A stretch of 64,000 nt of DNA from Pseudomonas lalucatii (GTDB lineage: Bacteria; Pseudomonadota; Gammaproteobacteria; Pseudomonadales; Pseudomonadaceae), in the NCBI RefSeq assembly GCF_018398425.1, contig NZ_JADPMV010000001.1, positions 1,302,001-1,366,000 of the forward strand. The letters run 5' to 3'. A program made the position numbers and the translations under genes. The notes under the pieces are model-generated. The model did no database searches and had not been told where the DNA came from. It saw only the letters and a program-made list of their open reading frames with translations. The first letter of the stretch is position 1; every line of letters begins with the position of its first letter. Shown in pieces: positions 13,303 to 28,021 of the stretch.

Positions 13303-14937
13303 TCAGCCGGCCGAGGCCTCGTAGTCGTCGGCCACTTTCATCTGCAGGCTGCGCGCCGGCTCGACCAGCAGGGTGCGGTGCAGGGCCATGGCCATCAGCA
13401 CCAGGATCACCCCGATCGGCAGGGCGGCGCAGATGGCCGCGGTCTGCACGCTCTTCAGGCCGCCCGACCACAGCAGACCGGCGGCGATGGCGCCGACCAT
13501 CAGGCCCCAGACCACCCGGCTGGCCGCCGGTGGGTGCAGGCTGCCGCGCGCCGCCAGGGTGCTCACCACCAGGGTGCCGGAGTCGGCGGAGGTGACGAAG
13601 TAGGTGACGATCAGCAGCGAGGCCAGGGCGCCGAGCAGGCCGCCGATGCTCATGCCCGAGGACTGCTCGATCTTGTCGAACAGGGTGAACAGCGAGTTGG
13701 TGGCATCGGCCTTGGTCGCCACCAGGACGTCACCGCCCTTGAACTCGGCCGCCTCGCCTTCCAGCGCCTGGCTCTGCACCTGCTCCTGATGGGCGATGCG
13801 GTCGGCCTTTTCATAGTTCAGGGCGGCGCCGCCGAAGGTGCCGATCCAGACGAAGCTGAACAGCACCGGGATGACCAGCGAGCCCATCACCAGCTGGCGG
13901 ATGGTGCGGCCACGGGAGATGCGCGCGATGAAGGTGCCGACGAAAGGTGCCCAGGTCAGCCACCAGGCCCAGTAGAAGGCGGTCCACCAGTTCTGCCAGC
14001 CGGCATCGTTCTGGGTATCGCTCCACAGGCTCATGCCGATCACGCTCTGGGCGTAGTCGGAGGTGCCTTCGAGGATGGTGTTGAGGATGTAGCGGGTCGG
14101 ACCGAAGGCCATCACCGCCGCCAGGATCACCAGCGACAGGCCCATGTTCCACAGCGACAGCAGCTTGATGCCACGGTCCACGCCGGACACCACCGACATG
14201 ATGGCGACCAGGGAGATGCCGAGGATCAGCAGCATCTTCATGCCGATGCCCATCTCGATGCCGGTCAGGGTCTTGATCCCGGTGGCCAGCTGCTCGACGC
14301 CCAGGCCGAACGAGGTGGCGATACCGAAGGCGGTGACCACCACGATGAGGATGTCGAAGGTGGCGCCGAGCCAGCCGTTCATCCGCGCCTCGCCGAACAG
14401 CGGGGTCAGGGTCGAGCGGATCGACAGCGGCTTGCCCTTGCGGAACGAGAAGTAGGCCAGGCACAGCGCCGGCATCAGGTACAGGGCCCAGGCGTGCATG
14501 CCCCAGTGGAAGTAGGTCACGCGCATCGCCGTTTGGGCCGATTCGGCACTCAGCGCGGTGGCGCTGAAGGGGTTGCCGGCGTAATGCCACATGGGTTCGG
14601 CCACCGACCAGAACAGCAGGCCGATGCCCATGCCGGCGCTGAACAGCATGGACAGCCAGGATACGGTGCTGAATTCGGGTTTCTCGCCATCCTTGCCGAG
14701 GGTGACATTGCCGAAGCGGCTGACCATCAGGTACAGCAGGTAGACCAGAACGCCCGAGGCCATGGCCAGGTAGAACCATTTGAAGTTCAACAGAATACCG
14801 GTCGAAAGCTCGCCGAATATGCTGCCGGCCTGCTCGCCCATCACCGCGCAGAAGGCGACGAAGGCCAGGATTATCGCTGTCGATACGAGGGTAATCCGGG
14901 CGTCGACGCCACGGAACATACCGCTGGAACGGCTCAT
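13303..14937 (-). CDS. BCCT-family betaine/choline-type transporter (1)
   Basis: A 544-residue inner-membrane carrier with about 12 TM segments. Family motifs: GMGIGLLFWSVAEP (TM3), then FYWAWWLTWAPFVGTFIARIS with the RGRTIRQ loop. BCCT carriers import choline, glycine betaine, carnitine or DMSP, coupled to Na+ or H+. A hydrophilic insert of about 50 residues (ALNYEKADRIAHQEQ onward) occurs late in the protein. The ATG at 14937 has TGGAG upstream and is preferred to a 33-codon longer frame. It is monocistronic: a 600-base gap lies upstream and a terminator downstream. Confidence 0.9.
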   Translation of the reverse strand: MSRSSGMFRGVDARITLVSTAIILAFVAFCAVMGEQAGSIFGELSTGILLNFKWFYLAMASGVLVYLLYLMVSRFGNVTLGKDGEKPEFSTVSWLSMLFSAGMGIGLLFWSVAEPMWHYAGNPFSATALSAESAQTAMRVTYFHWGMHAWALYLMPALCLAYFSFRKGKPLSIRSTLTPLFGEARMNGWLGATFDILIVVVTAFGIATSFGLGVEQLATGIKTLTGIEMGIGMKMLLILGISLVAIMSVVSGVDRGIKLLSLWNMGLSLVILAAVMAFGPTRYILNTILEGTSDYAQSVIGMSLWSDTQNDAGWQNWWTAFYWAWWLTWAPFVGTFIARISRGRTIRQLVMGSLVIPVLFSFVWIGTFGGAALNYEKADRIAHQEQVQSQALEGEAAEFKGGDVLVATKADATNSLFTLFDKIEQSSGMSIGGLLGALASLLIVTYFVTSADSGTLVVSTLAARGSLHPPAASRVVWGLMVGAIAAGLLWSGGLKSVQTAAICAALPIGVILVLMAMALHRTLLVEPARSLQMKVADDYEASAG

Positions 14938-14981
14938 ATCAAGTTCTCCATTGTTATAGTTTGATATGTCTGATGTACAAA

Positions 14982-14998
14982 CGACTCGAGGTGAGTCG
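14982..14998. repeat. short inverted repeat upstream of BCCT gene 1
   Basis: CGACTC (14982-14987) and GAGTCG (14993-14998) form a perfect 6-bp dyad with a 5-base centre, 45 bases before the BCCT start. It could be an operator; no known box matches. Confidence 0.3.
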
Positions 14999-26522: not shown

Positions 26523-27103
26523 TGTTGTTCTCCCCTGCTGGGCACGGTTGCTGATGAGCGGCAGGCGCATGGGCCTGGCGTCGTTGGCGGCGAGTTTCGG
26601 CAACCGGGGGCGTGTTCGACAAACGAATTTTTACGGGGCTATTTATGAGCTTTAATCACAAATTCCCGAAAGCGCCTGCGAGGGCCAGTTCCTGATGGAT
26701 CGAAGCCTTGCGCGGCCATATCCATGTATAAAAGTCATTAATCCATGACCACGAATGGCTTGCCGGGTGGGCCCGGCGCGGGCAACCTGTCGCCCCGATG
26801 GAGCGTGGACACGGCGACCGCCGCCGGCCTCGATCCTGCAAGAGAGCCTGCACCGCGCCTCGGGCGTCGGCCAGGCTCCGGCGCCCCGCCCAGCACCCGT
26901 GGCAGGGCGCTCGCCCACCCGAAGACTCCCGGCACGACCCAGGCCCCATGCCCGGGCGTGCCGGGCGGGGCCACCCCGCGCTACCGGCGCGCCCGGCCTG
27001 CACAGGCGCCGCCGTCGCCCGCCCCGGCAAGCGACGAAGGCACAGCCCCACGCACCACTGCCGCAGGTCACAAGCCTGCGGCAGTGTCCGTTTCAGCCCG
27101 GGA
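26523..27103. other. 581-base upstream region of the Rieske operon
   Basis: The first 190 bases hold the operon promoter, with AT-rich runs around 26625-26660 (ATTTTTA, TTTATGAGCTTTAATCACAAA). From about 26750 to 27055 the DNA is extremely GC-rich; all three plus frames and some minus frames stay open, but none shows family character, so I call no gene. A strong hairpin ends the stretch. Confidence 0.5.
27056..27086. terminator. perfect 12-bp hairpin after the LysR gene
   Basis: CACTGCCGCAGG (27056-27067) and CCTGCGGCAGTG (27075-27086) pair perfectly around a 7-base loop. It lies 18 bases past the LysR stop codon, the usual place for a terminator, though neither side has a long U-tract (TCCGTTT on the plus side). 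A shorter hairpin with the same CACAAGC loop core occurs at 45421-45443. Confidence 0.55.
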
Positions 27104-28021
27104 TCAGGCGCCCAGGCCCTCCGGCGGCAGCTGCTGCATCAGCCAGTCGCGAAAGCGCTTGACGCTCTGCCGGCTGCTGCCGTGCCCCAGGGGCTCGAGC
27201 AGGCAGAACTGCGCATCGGTGTGCAGGGCCTCGCCGATCGGCCGTACCAGGGCGCCGGTCTGCAGGTGATTGTCGATCAGGTTCGACCAGGCCAGGGCGA
27301 TGCCCTGGCCGCTGAGCGCCGTCTGGATCAGCATCGAGTAGCTGTTGATATTGATCCGGTGGCGGGGCTTGGGCGCCGGCTGGCCGAGGCGCTGGAACCA
27401 CTCGCCCCAGCCGATCCAGTCGCGTTGCGGGTCCTCCAGCCACAGCCAGGTGCAGCCGGCCAGCTGTTGCAGCTCATGCAGGTCCGGGTGCTTGGCCAGG
27501 TAACCCGGGCTGCACACCGGGAACACCTCCTCGGAGAACAGCGGGGTCACCTGCATGTCCTTCGGCGGGGTGCGGCAGTAGTACAGCGCCAGGTCGCAAT
27601 CCAGGCGGGAGAAGTCCTTGACGTGGTCGTAGGCGATGATGCGCAGGTCGATCTCTTCGTTGTCACGCTGGAACTCGGCGACCTTGGGCAGCAGCCACAA
27701 CGAGGCCATCGCCGTGCTGGTGACCACGGTGACCTGCTGCGCACCGTGCCAGTGGCGGATCTGCCCGGTGGCATGGGCCAGCTGCTGCAGCGACTCGCGC
27801 ACGGTCTCGTAGTACTGGCCGCCGGTCGGCGTCAGGTGGATCGCCCGGGTGGTGCGCTCGAACAGGGTCTTGCCCAGGTAGTCCTCGAGCAGGCGCACCT
27901 GGCGACTGATGGCGCCCTGGGTGACGCTGAGTTCTTGCGCGGCCAGGGTGAAGCTGAGGTGGCGCGCAGCCGCCTCGAACGCCACCAGGCTGTTGAGCGG
28001 GGGCAGGGGTTGGATTTTCAT
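27104..28021 (-). CDS. LysR-family regulator, GcvA-like
   Basis: A 305-residue LysR regulator: helix-turn-helix in residues 6-65 (LNSLVAFEAAARHLSFTLAAQELSV, QGAISRQVRLLEDYLGK), then a substrate-binding domain (VTVVTSTAMASLWLLPKVAEFQ). It lies directly upstream of the Rieske operon on the same strand, so it is the best candidate for its regulator. The gene is read from the ATG at 28021; the longer frame that runs on upstream crosses the neighbouring oxygenase gene and is not real. Confidence 0.88.
   Translation of the reverse strand: MKIQPLPPLNSLVAFEAAARHLSFTLAAQELSVTQGAISRQVRLLEDYLGKTLFERTTRAIHLTPTGGQYYETVRESLQQLAHATGQIRHWHGAQQVTVVTSTAMASLWLLPKVAEFQRDNEEIDLRIIAYDHVKDFSRLDCDLALYYCRTPPKDMQVTPLFSEEVFPVCSPGYLAKHPDLHELQQLAGCTWLWLEDPQRDWIGWGEWFQRLGQPAPKPRHRININSYSMLIQTALSGQGIALAWSNLIDNHLQTGALVRPIGEALHTDAQFCLLEPLGHGSSRQSVKRFRDWLMQQLPPEGLGA

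Follow-up and report, generated by a model that had tools for sequence, protein, structure and literature searches.

The window analysed in this study is a 64,000-nucleotide stretch of the Pseudomonas lalucatii genome (contig NZ_JADPMV010000001.1, positions 1,302,001 to 1,366,000), and the system in question is a minus-strand gene cluster that combines a Rieske oxygenase with an aldehyde dehydrogenase (ALDH), a rubredoxin reductase, an FAD oxidase, and carriers of the BCCT family. An earlier note, made from the sequence alone, had described it as a catabolic island for an onium compound. The genes of the cluster and its neighbors are as follows.

27104..28021, minus: LysR-type regulator (LysRa), likely the core regulator (PF03466/PF00126)
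25332..26522, minus: Rieske oxygenase (PF00355, 69 bits; PF00848, 143 bits)
23876..25321, minus: ALDH; catalytic Cys and Glu retained
22455..23870, minus: rubredoxin fused to NAD-dependent rubredoxin reductase (PF00301, PF07992, PF18113)
21116..22444, minus: FAD amine/amino-acid oxidase of the DAO family (PF01266)
20748..21119, minus: EutQ-type cupin (PF06249)
19383..20672, minus: MFS transporter, accessory (PF07690)
18088..19335, minus: DddP-family M24 enzyme, accessory (family profile and active-site residues)
16190..17743, minus: BCCT carrier 2, accessory (PF02028)
15538..16122, minus: thiol dioxygenase-like cupin; nearest solved structure, 3-mercaptopropionate dioxygenase
13303..14937, minus: BCCT carrier 1 (PF02028)
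29502..30986, minus: PutP-like sodium:solute symporter, neighbor (PF00474)
31139..34327, minus: PutA proline dehydrogenase/P5C dehydrogenase, neighbor

Every gene named in the earlier note is present on the minus strand, and the gap range it gave (−4 to 75 bases) is confirmed by coordinates with checked start codons. From the Rieske gene through those of ALDH, rubredoxin reductase, FAD oxidase, cupin, MFS, and M24, the successive gaps are 10, 5, 10, −4, 75, and 47 bases. The LysR gene lies 581 bases upstream of the Rieske gene. At the other end, BCCT2 begins 344 bases past M24, followed by the thiol dioxygenase-like gene and, 600 bases beyond it, BCCT1. The thiol dioxygenase-like protein scores 83 bits to 4wvz and 65 bits to the mercaptosuccinate dioxygenase 8vni, and it matches no Pfam or NCBIfam model.

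For comparison, we used the best 80 of 98 FAD oxidase relatives in named genomes, which is not a random draw; the stretches reach at most 10 kb to each side, and some end at contig ends. The Rieske oxygenase, ALDH, rubredoxin reductase, FAD oxidase, and cupin co-occur in 79 of the 80 loci, and therefore their grouping is more than chance. The earlier note had suggested looking for synteny in other genomes, and this core is indeed kept in hosts that include Pseudomonas, Acinetobacter, Psychrobacter, Vibrio, Paraburkholderia, and Denitromonas. The exception is a Psychrobacter locus (L147) that has only the FAD oxidase, cupin, and LysR genes; the EutQ-type cupin is present in all 80. A LysR gene (at least 50% identity) stands alongside the five core genes in 77/80 loci, and a BCCT gene (at least 40% identity) accompanies 71 of the 79 complete cores, across many lineages. 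The MFS gene is present in 41/80 loci and the M24 gene in 22/80. The thiol dioxygenase-like gene, which the earlier note had counted with the set, turned out to be rare (6/80).

All seven genes from Rieske to M24 were seen together only in Pseudomonas loci. Outside that genus, one Pseudoduganella locus (L104) and one Massilia locus (L125) also have an MFS relative adjoining the core. Between LysRa and PutP, a fusion of AhpC/TSA (peroxiredoxin-like) and 2OG-Fe(II) oxygenase parts is encoded at 28105-29259 (minus strand), and its relatives are found in 5/80 core loci. One genome (G572) holds the arrangement PutA-PutP-fusion-MFS-M24-BCCT1, with LysRb on the other strand, and has no core. Because MFS-M24-BCCT1 is kept there without the core, the modules are separable. 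The set is therefore best described as five core enzymes that are conserved together, with accessory genes (MFS, M24, and thiol dioxygenase) that can be parted from them, rather than as a single seven-gene pathway.

Plasmids of Oceanisphaera, Cupriavidus, and Pseudomonas sp. MPC6 carry the core as well. Of 398 Pseudomonadota genomes drawn evenly, 22 have a relative of the Rieske protein (E ≤ 1e-80), and 16 of these belong to one family of another class (f74) with 46 to 50% Rieske identity. Among plasmid records with a match at E ≤ 1e-60, 75/83 come from Phaeobacter and Leisingera.

The FAD oxidase and its neighbors have their closest named relatives in Pseudomonas species, and the host genome (4.58 Mb, two contigs) is rich in onium genes. 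It has 13 BCCT matches, the last two of which are probably pieces of one 605-aa frame, two DddP-family M24 genes, and six GbcA-profile matches, one of them above the cut-off (798 bits against 670). The gene for this GbcA and a reductase gene (L161, C2:1493000-1512500) adjoin a BCCT carrier and a DddD-like gene that shares 46% identity with its MPC6 counterpart. A second cluster (L157, C2:640000-659500) contains a Stc2/GbcA-like Rieske, LysR, an FAD oxidase relative (46%), ALDH, and a ferredoxin-type reductase.

The Rieske protein has the Rieske 2Fe-2S and ring-hydroxylase-type catalytic domains. Its closest solved structure is carnitine monooxygenase CntA, to which it is approximately 27% identical in an alignment spanning residues 26-369 of 397. 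The predicted structure had a mean pLDDT of 41 and was not used. A phylogeny of 38 Rieske proteins places 17 core and 13 more distant sequences in one clade of 30 rows (99/97), separate from AbCntA/YeaW and the GbcA/Stc2-like proteins; several long branches were flagged, which leaves the branching order of the groups uncertain. On this tree, the core proteins make up a third branch, next to those of CntA and of GbcA/Stc2. A DUF3726 gene together with a 563- or 573-aa protein without a Pfam match was seen near the Rieske cluster in both Phaeobacter and Pseudomonas MPC6 (L063, 16554-18892; L059, 6532-8999).

Tyr220 of the Rieske protein corresponds to Tyr203 of CntA and is Tyr in 79/79 loci. Glu222 corresponds to Glu205, and His225 and His230 were also noted. 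According to a published classification, clade Va enzymes acting on carnitine, choline, and benzalkonium have Tyr or Phe at position 203, whereas the clade Vb demethylases have Asn (PMC7948474); the core Rieske lacks this Asn. The Cys206/Cys209 pair, described as a group V feature (PMC10952381), is replaced by Ala223/Leu226, and Ala/Leu is found in 79/79 loci. The protein scores 138 bits against the GbcA model NF058607 of NCBIfam, whose cut-off is 670. The core protein, called a betaine-type Rieske in the earlier note, resembles neither GbcA nor Stc2, given its separate clade, the Tyr at position 203, and the low GbcA score. From its gene position, we propose the fused rubredoxin reductase as the electron donor of the Rieske oxygenase. 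Its four rubredoxin Cys residues are retained in 79/79 loci, and nothing in the window matches YeaX, a CntB-type reductase, at E ≤ 1e-5.

Arg161 of the ALDH corresponds to Arg166 of malic semialdehyde dehydrogenase (MSA-DH) and is Arg in 79/79 loci, whereas Phe and Gly take the places of MSA-DH Arg284 and Ser447. Arg166 is reported to bind malic semialdehyde in the ALDH of the carnitine operon, where LysR, BCCT, Rieske, and ALDH genes are clustered (PMC11353897). Betaine aldehyde dehydrogenase was rejected as an identity of this ALDH, which scores 399 bits where 668.6 is the cut-off and has an Arg at the position of a Trp in the BADH chain 5gtk, and a choline-monooxygenase-like reading was rejected on the same grounds. 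The resemblance to the carnitine operon allows an acyclic route, in which the Rieske oxygenase would free trimethylamine from a trimethylammonium acid (gamma-butyrobetaine, trimethyllysine, or a carnitine relative), the ALDH would make the acid, and the FAD oxidase would handle the carbon skeleton. CntA being the nearest solved Rieske over nearly the full length, the shared aromatic residue 203 and Arg166, and the clustering of BCCT and LysR in both systems speak for it. We nevertheless consider it unlikely: the Rieske protein lies on a separate branch and is served by a different reductase type, two of the MSA-DH residues are replaced, one A. baumannii record holds both systems, and release of trimethylamine leaves no obvious task for an FAD oxidase of the sarcosine/proline type.

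The FAD oxidase has the fold of glycine, sarcosine, proline, and dimethylglycine oxidases (model mean pLDDT 72). Its best NCBIfam model is L-pipecolate oxidase (123 bits, cut-off 600), and the nearest plasmid-borne relative outside the core (54% identity) is found in Agrobacterium beside a Stc2-like demethylase. A fragment 57% identical to the FAD oxidase lies right behind M24 at 11182-11454 of another locus (L039, genome G012), where an additional copy of the oxidase gene may have decayed. The pipecolate model and the Agrobacterium relative could indicate ordinary oxidative N-demethylation of a betaine, after which both enzymes would act on the demethylated amino acid: the FAD oxidase would open a cyclic amine as pipecolate oxidase does and the ALDH would take the semialdehyde. 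Most of the wider Rieske clade has no nearby ALDH, which would also suit this route. The Asn of group Vb (Stc2 and GbcA) is Tyr in every locus, however, and formaldehyde genes are rarely nearby. When gfa, fghA, and two dehydrogenase types were searched (at least 40% identity, E ≤ 1e-40), they were found beside only 1 of 87 core loci (gfa, L109); demethylase clusters, by contrast, have formaldehyde genes. N-demethylation thus appears rather doubtful.

The M24 enzyme is the top-scoring DddP-family protein of the host genome (424.6 bits against a cut-off of 600 for NF043017). It retains all eight DddP residues: Asp295, Asp297, Asp307, His371, Glu406, Glu421, Tyr366, and Asp377. In RdDddP, six metal ligands and two proposed catalytic residues are described (PMC4108388). 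The eight are complete in 34 of 35 family members compared, the exception being L013. Among 298 Pseudomonas-genus genomes (E ≤ 1e-150), the core Rieske is present in 23, M24 in 11, and both in 9, always on one contig and 4.7 to 6.1 kb apart (Fisher p 9e-10, not corrected for shared ancestry). The junction of a DddP-like enzyme to the Rieske set, pointed out in the earlier note, is thus a linkage beyond chance. The placement of M24 with respect to the core varies among genera, and five arrangements were seen. In one Pseudomonas-genus genome (L219, 4806-9054), a BCCT gene beside M24 is split by an IS21-type IstB/transposase pair.

In the M24 tree, core-linked copies fall in two clades, one among M24s of clusters with Stc2-like Rieske or hydroxyproline genes and the other beside DddP, and the window M24 falls outside the DddP clade. 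A tree that groups the G572 copy with all 12 of the core-linked sequences was rejected (p-AU 4.8e-6), in a test run after inspection of the tree, with rows labelled by synteny and long branches flagged. Because the core-linked copies are split between two clades and the single-group tree is rejected, M24 has probably joined the core at least twice.

M24 relatives are also found in other betaine clusters. In Rhizobium leguminosarum WSM1325, a LysR-Rieske-reductase-M24 set adjoins genes for a 4-hydroxyproline epimerase, a betaine/proline ABC carrier, an FAD oxidoreductase, an ALDH, and a DHDPS-like protein. In R. johnstonii, the equivalent operon has as neighbors two PF16867 cupins, ETF, a flavin oxidoreductase, and genes for formaldehyde handling. 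This flavin oxidoreductase is 74% identical to the product of a gene labelled hpbA (N-methyl-L-proline N-demethylase) and 89% identical to that of a gene on a 1.68-Mb replicon of Sinorhizobium meliloti 1021, which from its size we take to be pSymB. As stcD is reported to be located on pSymB (PMC12239276), the latter gene may be stcD. Similar M24 sets are present in Paraburkholderia, Caballeronia, and clusters of two Pseudomonas-genus genomes. Five Rieske proteins of these M24 clusters share 41 to 78% identity with the Agrobacterium Rieske and have Asn at position 203; the Agrobacterium protein itself matches 3vca (335 bits), reported as a stachydrine demethylase (PMC4014116). In the 398-genome draw, M24 (E ≤ 1e-60) is present in 41 genomes and lies 1.2 kb from a Stc2-like Rieske in three and 11 kb in a fourth, so that most M24 genomes of the draw do not show this neighborhood; the 17 genomes with an over-cut-off DddP belong to this majority. 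At a rhizobial locus (L223), two PF16867 'DMSP lyase' cupins (15362-16057 and 17806-18411) and a DddP-family M24 bring two unrelated families of dimethylsulfoniopropionate (DMSP) lyase into one cluster, which also encodes a relative of N-methylproline demethylase.

The earlier note had considered a betaine or a sulfonium compound as the substrate. With DMSP or another sulfonium compound, M24 would be the DMSP lyase and the thiol dioxygenase would act on the sulfur branch; the eight retained residues and the presence of the latter gene fit this idea. On plasmid pMPC6-328K, the cluster is flanked by a BCCT gene, an alcohol dehydrogenase, a methylmalonate-semialdehyde dehydrogenase (674 bits, cut-off 448.5), and an 838-aa CoA-transferase, a flank that resembles a ddd set for DMSP. 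The same flank has an ALDH closest to alpha-ketoglutaric semialdehyde dehydrogenase (493 bits, below the cut-off of 770), and therefore these neighbors point both ways. A racemase-family gene on this plasmid was considered as a hydroxyproline-betaine epimerase and dropped, as it is closest to 3sjn (478 bits) and none of the best 60 of its 81 matches is so labelled. The window M24, on the other hand, scores below the DddP cut-off and lies outside the DddP clade, the thiol dioxygenase and M24 genes are present in a minority of core loci, and M24 relatives sit in rhizobial and Burkholderia-type betaine clusters. Because several of these clusters are of the proline-betaine or hydroxyproline type, a DddP-like gene alone is no sign of a sulfonium substrate. 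We regard such a substrate as highly improbable; the island described earlier is more probably a betaine operon.

It is also very unlikely that the locus is the homarine operon described in 2026 (homABCDER) or a version of it. That operon is reported to have five enzymes and a regulator, an equal count. An analogy with trigonelline predicts a flavin monooxygenase and an amidase, unlike the core set. A subunit of the SoxB-profile family, which would presumably hold the counterpart of N-methylglutamate dehydrogenase (Mgd), was sought in 22 core genomes selected from the 80; at E ≤ 1e-40, 14 of them lack it and the other 8 have a match, a split compatible with either answer. A paper citing the homarine study places Mgd in homarine catabolism (PMC13390433), in favor of the identity. 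In searches of the open-access PMC literature, none of the titles and abstract beginnings listed dealt with the present operon or with M24 genes in proline-betaine clusters; the gene list of the 2026 study is outside this scope. Within it, no operon of the same order was found, and the layout matches none of gbc/dgc/sox, cnt, and stachydrine, in agreement with the earlier impression of a non-standard layout. The shared gene set probably breaks down a betaine by a route unlike those of the operons in the literature surveyed.

Our preferred reading, put forward tentatively, is a betaine catabolic operon, likeliest for a proline-type cyclic betaine, that acts by C-N cleavage. A BCCT carrier would import a carboxylated quaternary ammonium compound, possibly stachydrine or a hydroxy or ring homologue. 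The fused rubredoxin reductase would relay electrons from NADH to the Rieske oxygenase, and the latter would hydroxylate a carbon adjoining the charged nitrogen, so that the C-N bond breaks (with ring opening in a cyclic betaine) and a semialdehyde forms. The ALDH would oxidize this semialdehyde, and the FAD oxidase would then act on the remaining N-substituted amino acid. LysR would control the core set, and the DddP-like M24 would be a separable helper whose family accompanies other betaine systems too. C-N cleavage is favored because residue 203 is aromatic, an anchor-bearing ALDH is present in every full core, and formaldehyde genes are nearly absent from the core loci; the Rieske step would thus be more like carnitine C-N cleavage than demethylation. 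Ties to proline-type betaines recur: M24 relatives occur in clusters with a Stc2-like Rieske, a 4-hydroxyproline epimerase, or a relative of N-methylproline demethylase, the 54% FAD oxidase relative comes from a cluster of this type, and PutA and PutP adjoin the core in the window. A cyclic betaine fits both strands of evidence, because cleavage of its ring C-N bond leaves an aldehyde and an N-methylated amino acid in one molecule, for the ALDH and the FAD oxidase to act on. What the data show directly is gene content, conservation, residue states, linkage, and phylogeny; the electron route, the cleavage, the sequence of reactions, and the class of substrate are deduced from these.

Several observations weigh against this preferred reading. 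Of the three residues that anchor the carboxylate in the carnitine ALDH, the core ALDH has lost two to substitution. The Rieske-ALDH pair is not universal in the wider Rieske clade: when 12 distant loci with 40-54% Rieske identity (L047-L058) were compared over about 19 kb, the ALDH was seen at E ≤ 1e-8 in L048 alone. One locus (L046) has the core without the rubredoxin reductase, as judged with a query lacking the rubredoxin domain, which was used in some other reductase comparisons as well. The scarcity of formaldehyde genes also speaks against an N-demethylating FAD oxidase, unless such genes lie elsewhere. The 54% relative of this oxidase is known from one plasmid, and a search of 121 genomes of a Rhizobium-like family, run without a positive control, gave no relative at E ≤ 1e-125. 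M24 was not seen in the fetched stretches of 58/80 loci. The proline link is drawn by association: PutA and PutP neighbor the core in the window, but within the fetched stretches they are present in only 3/80 and 6/80 core loci, respectively. Relatives of hydroxyproline epimerase or of the StcD/HpbA-like N-methylproline demethylase of R. johnstonii were found neither in the window (E ≤ 1e-5) nor in the 87 core loci (E ≤ 1e-40).

In soil, at root surfaces, and in marine settings, betaines are important carriers of carbon and nitrogen. The conserved operon described here combines a Rieske of an unassigned clade with an unusual redox partner and an invariant pairing of ALDH and oxidase, and it offers a route that can be tested in many bacteria amenable to culture. 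DddP is known as the producer of a marine sulfur gas, yet its relatives also adjoin betaine-degrading enzymes; given this linkage, DddP-like genes below the family cut-off should not be counted as DMSP lyases without an assay. The linkage offers a testable origin for DddP as well. In a wider proposal, which we think unlikely to hold in full, DddP-family M24 enzymes would be at home in proline-type betaine catabolism, some of them acting on the betaine or its first product, marine DddP would be an offshoot, and the core would have a rubredoxin-driven Rieske of the third type that cleaves the ring C-N bond.

Compared with known systems, the core is similar to the carnitine operon of A. baumannii (carR, mdh, bcct, hyd, cntA, msadh, and cntB) in clustering LysR, BCCT, a Rieske with an aromatic residue 203, and an ALDH with Arg166. 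The Rieske and ALDH proteins are, however, only approximately 27% and 34% identical between the two, and the carnitine operon has a CntB-type reductase in place of the rubredoxin reductase and no match to the FAD oxidase. The stachydrine/proline-betaine demethylation system (Stc2 and StcD/HpbA) likewise has a Rieske and LysR, and some rhizobia and Burkholderia-type plasmids have a DddP-family M24 in the cluster; its Stc2-like Rieske differs in having Asn at position 203, the Cys pair, a ferredoxin-type reductase, and often formaldehyde genes. With the glycine betaine system (gbcAB/dgcAB/soxBDAG), the core has a Rieske of the quaternary-ammonium type in common, but the core protein is far below the GbcA cut-off and the host has a separate GbcA. 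The M24 belongs to the same family as the DMSP lyase DddP and shares all its metal and catalytic residues, although it falls below the cut-off and outside the DddP clade. The Phaeobacter cluster on pPGA1_262 resembles the core in its Rieske (48%), ALDH (~61%), LysR, and nearby BCCT, whereas a ferredoxin-type reductase and an 806-aa DAO-GCV_T enzyme stand where the core has the rubredoxin reductase and the FAD oxidase.

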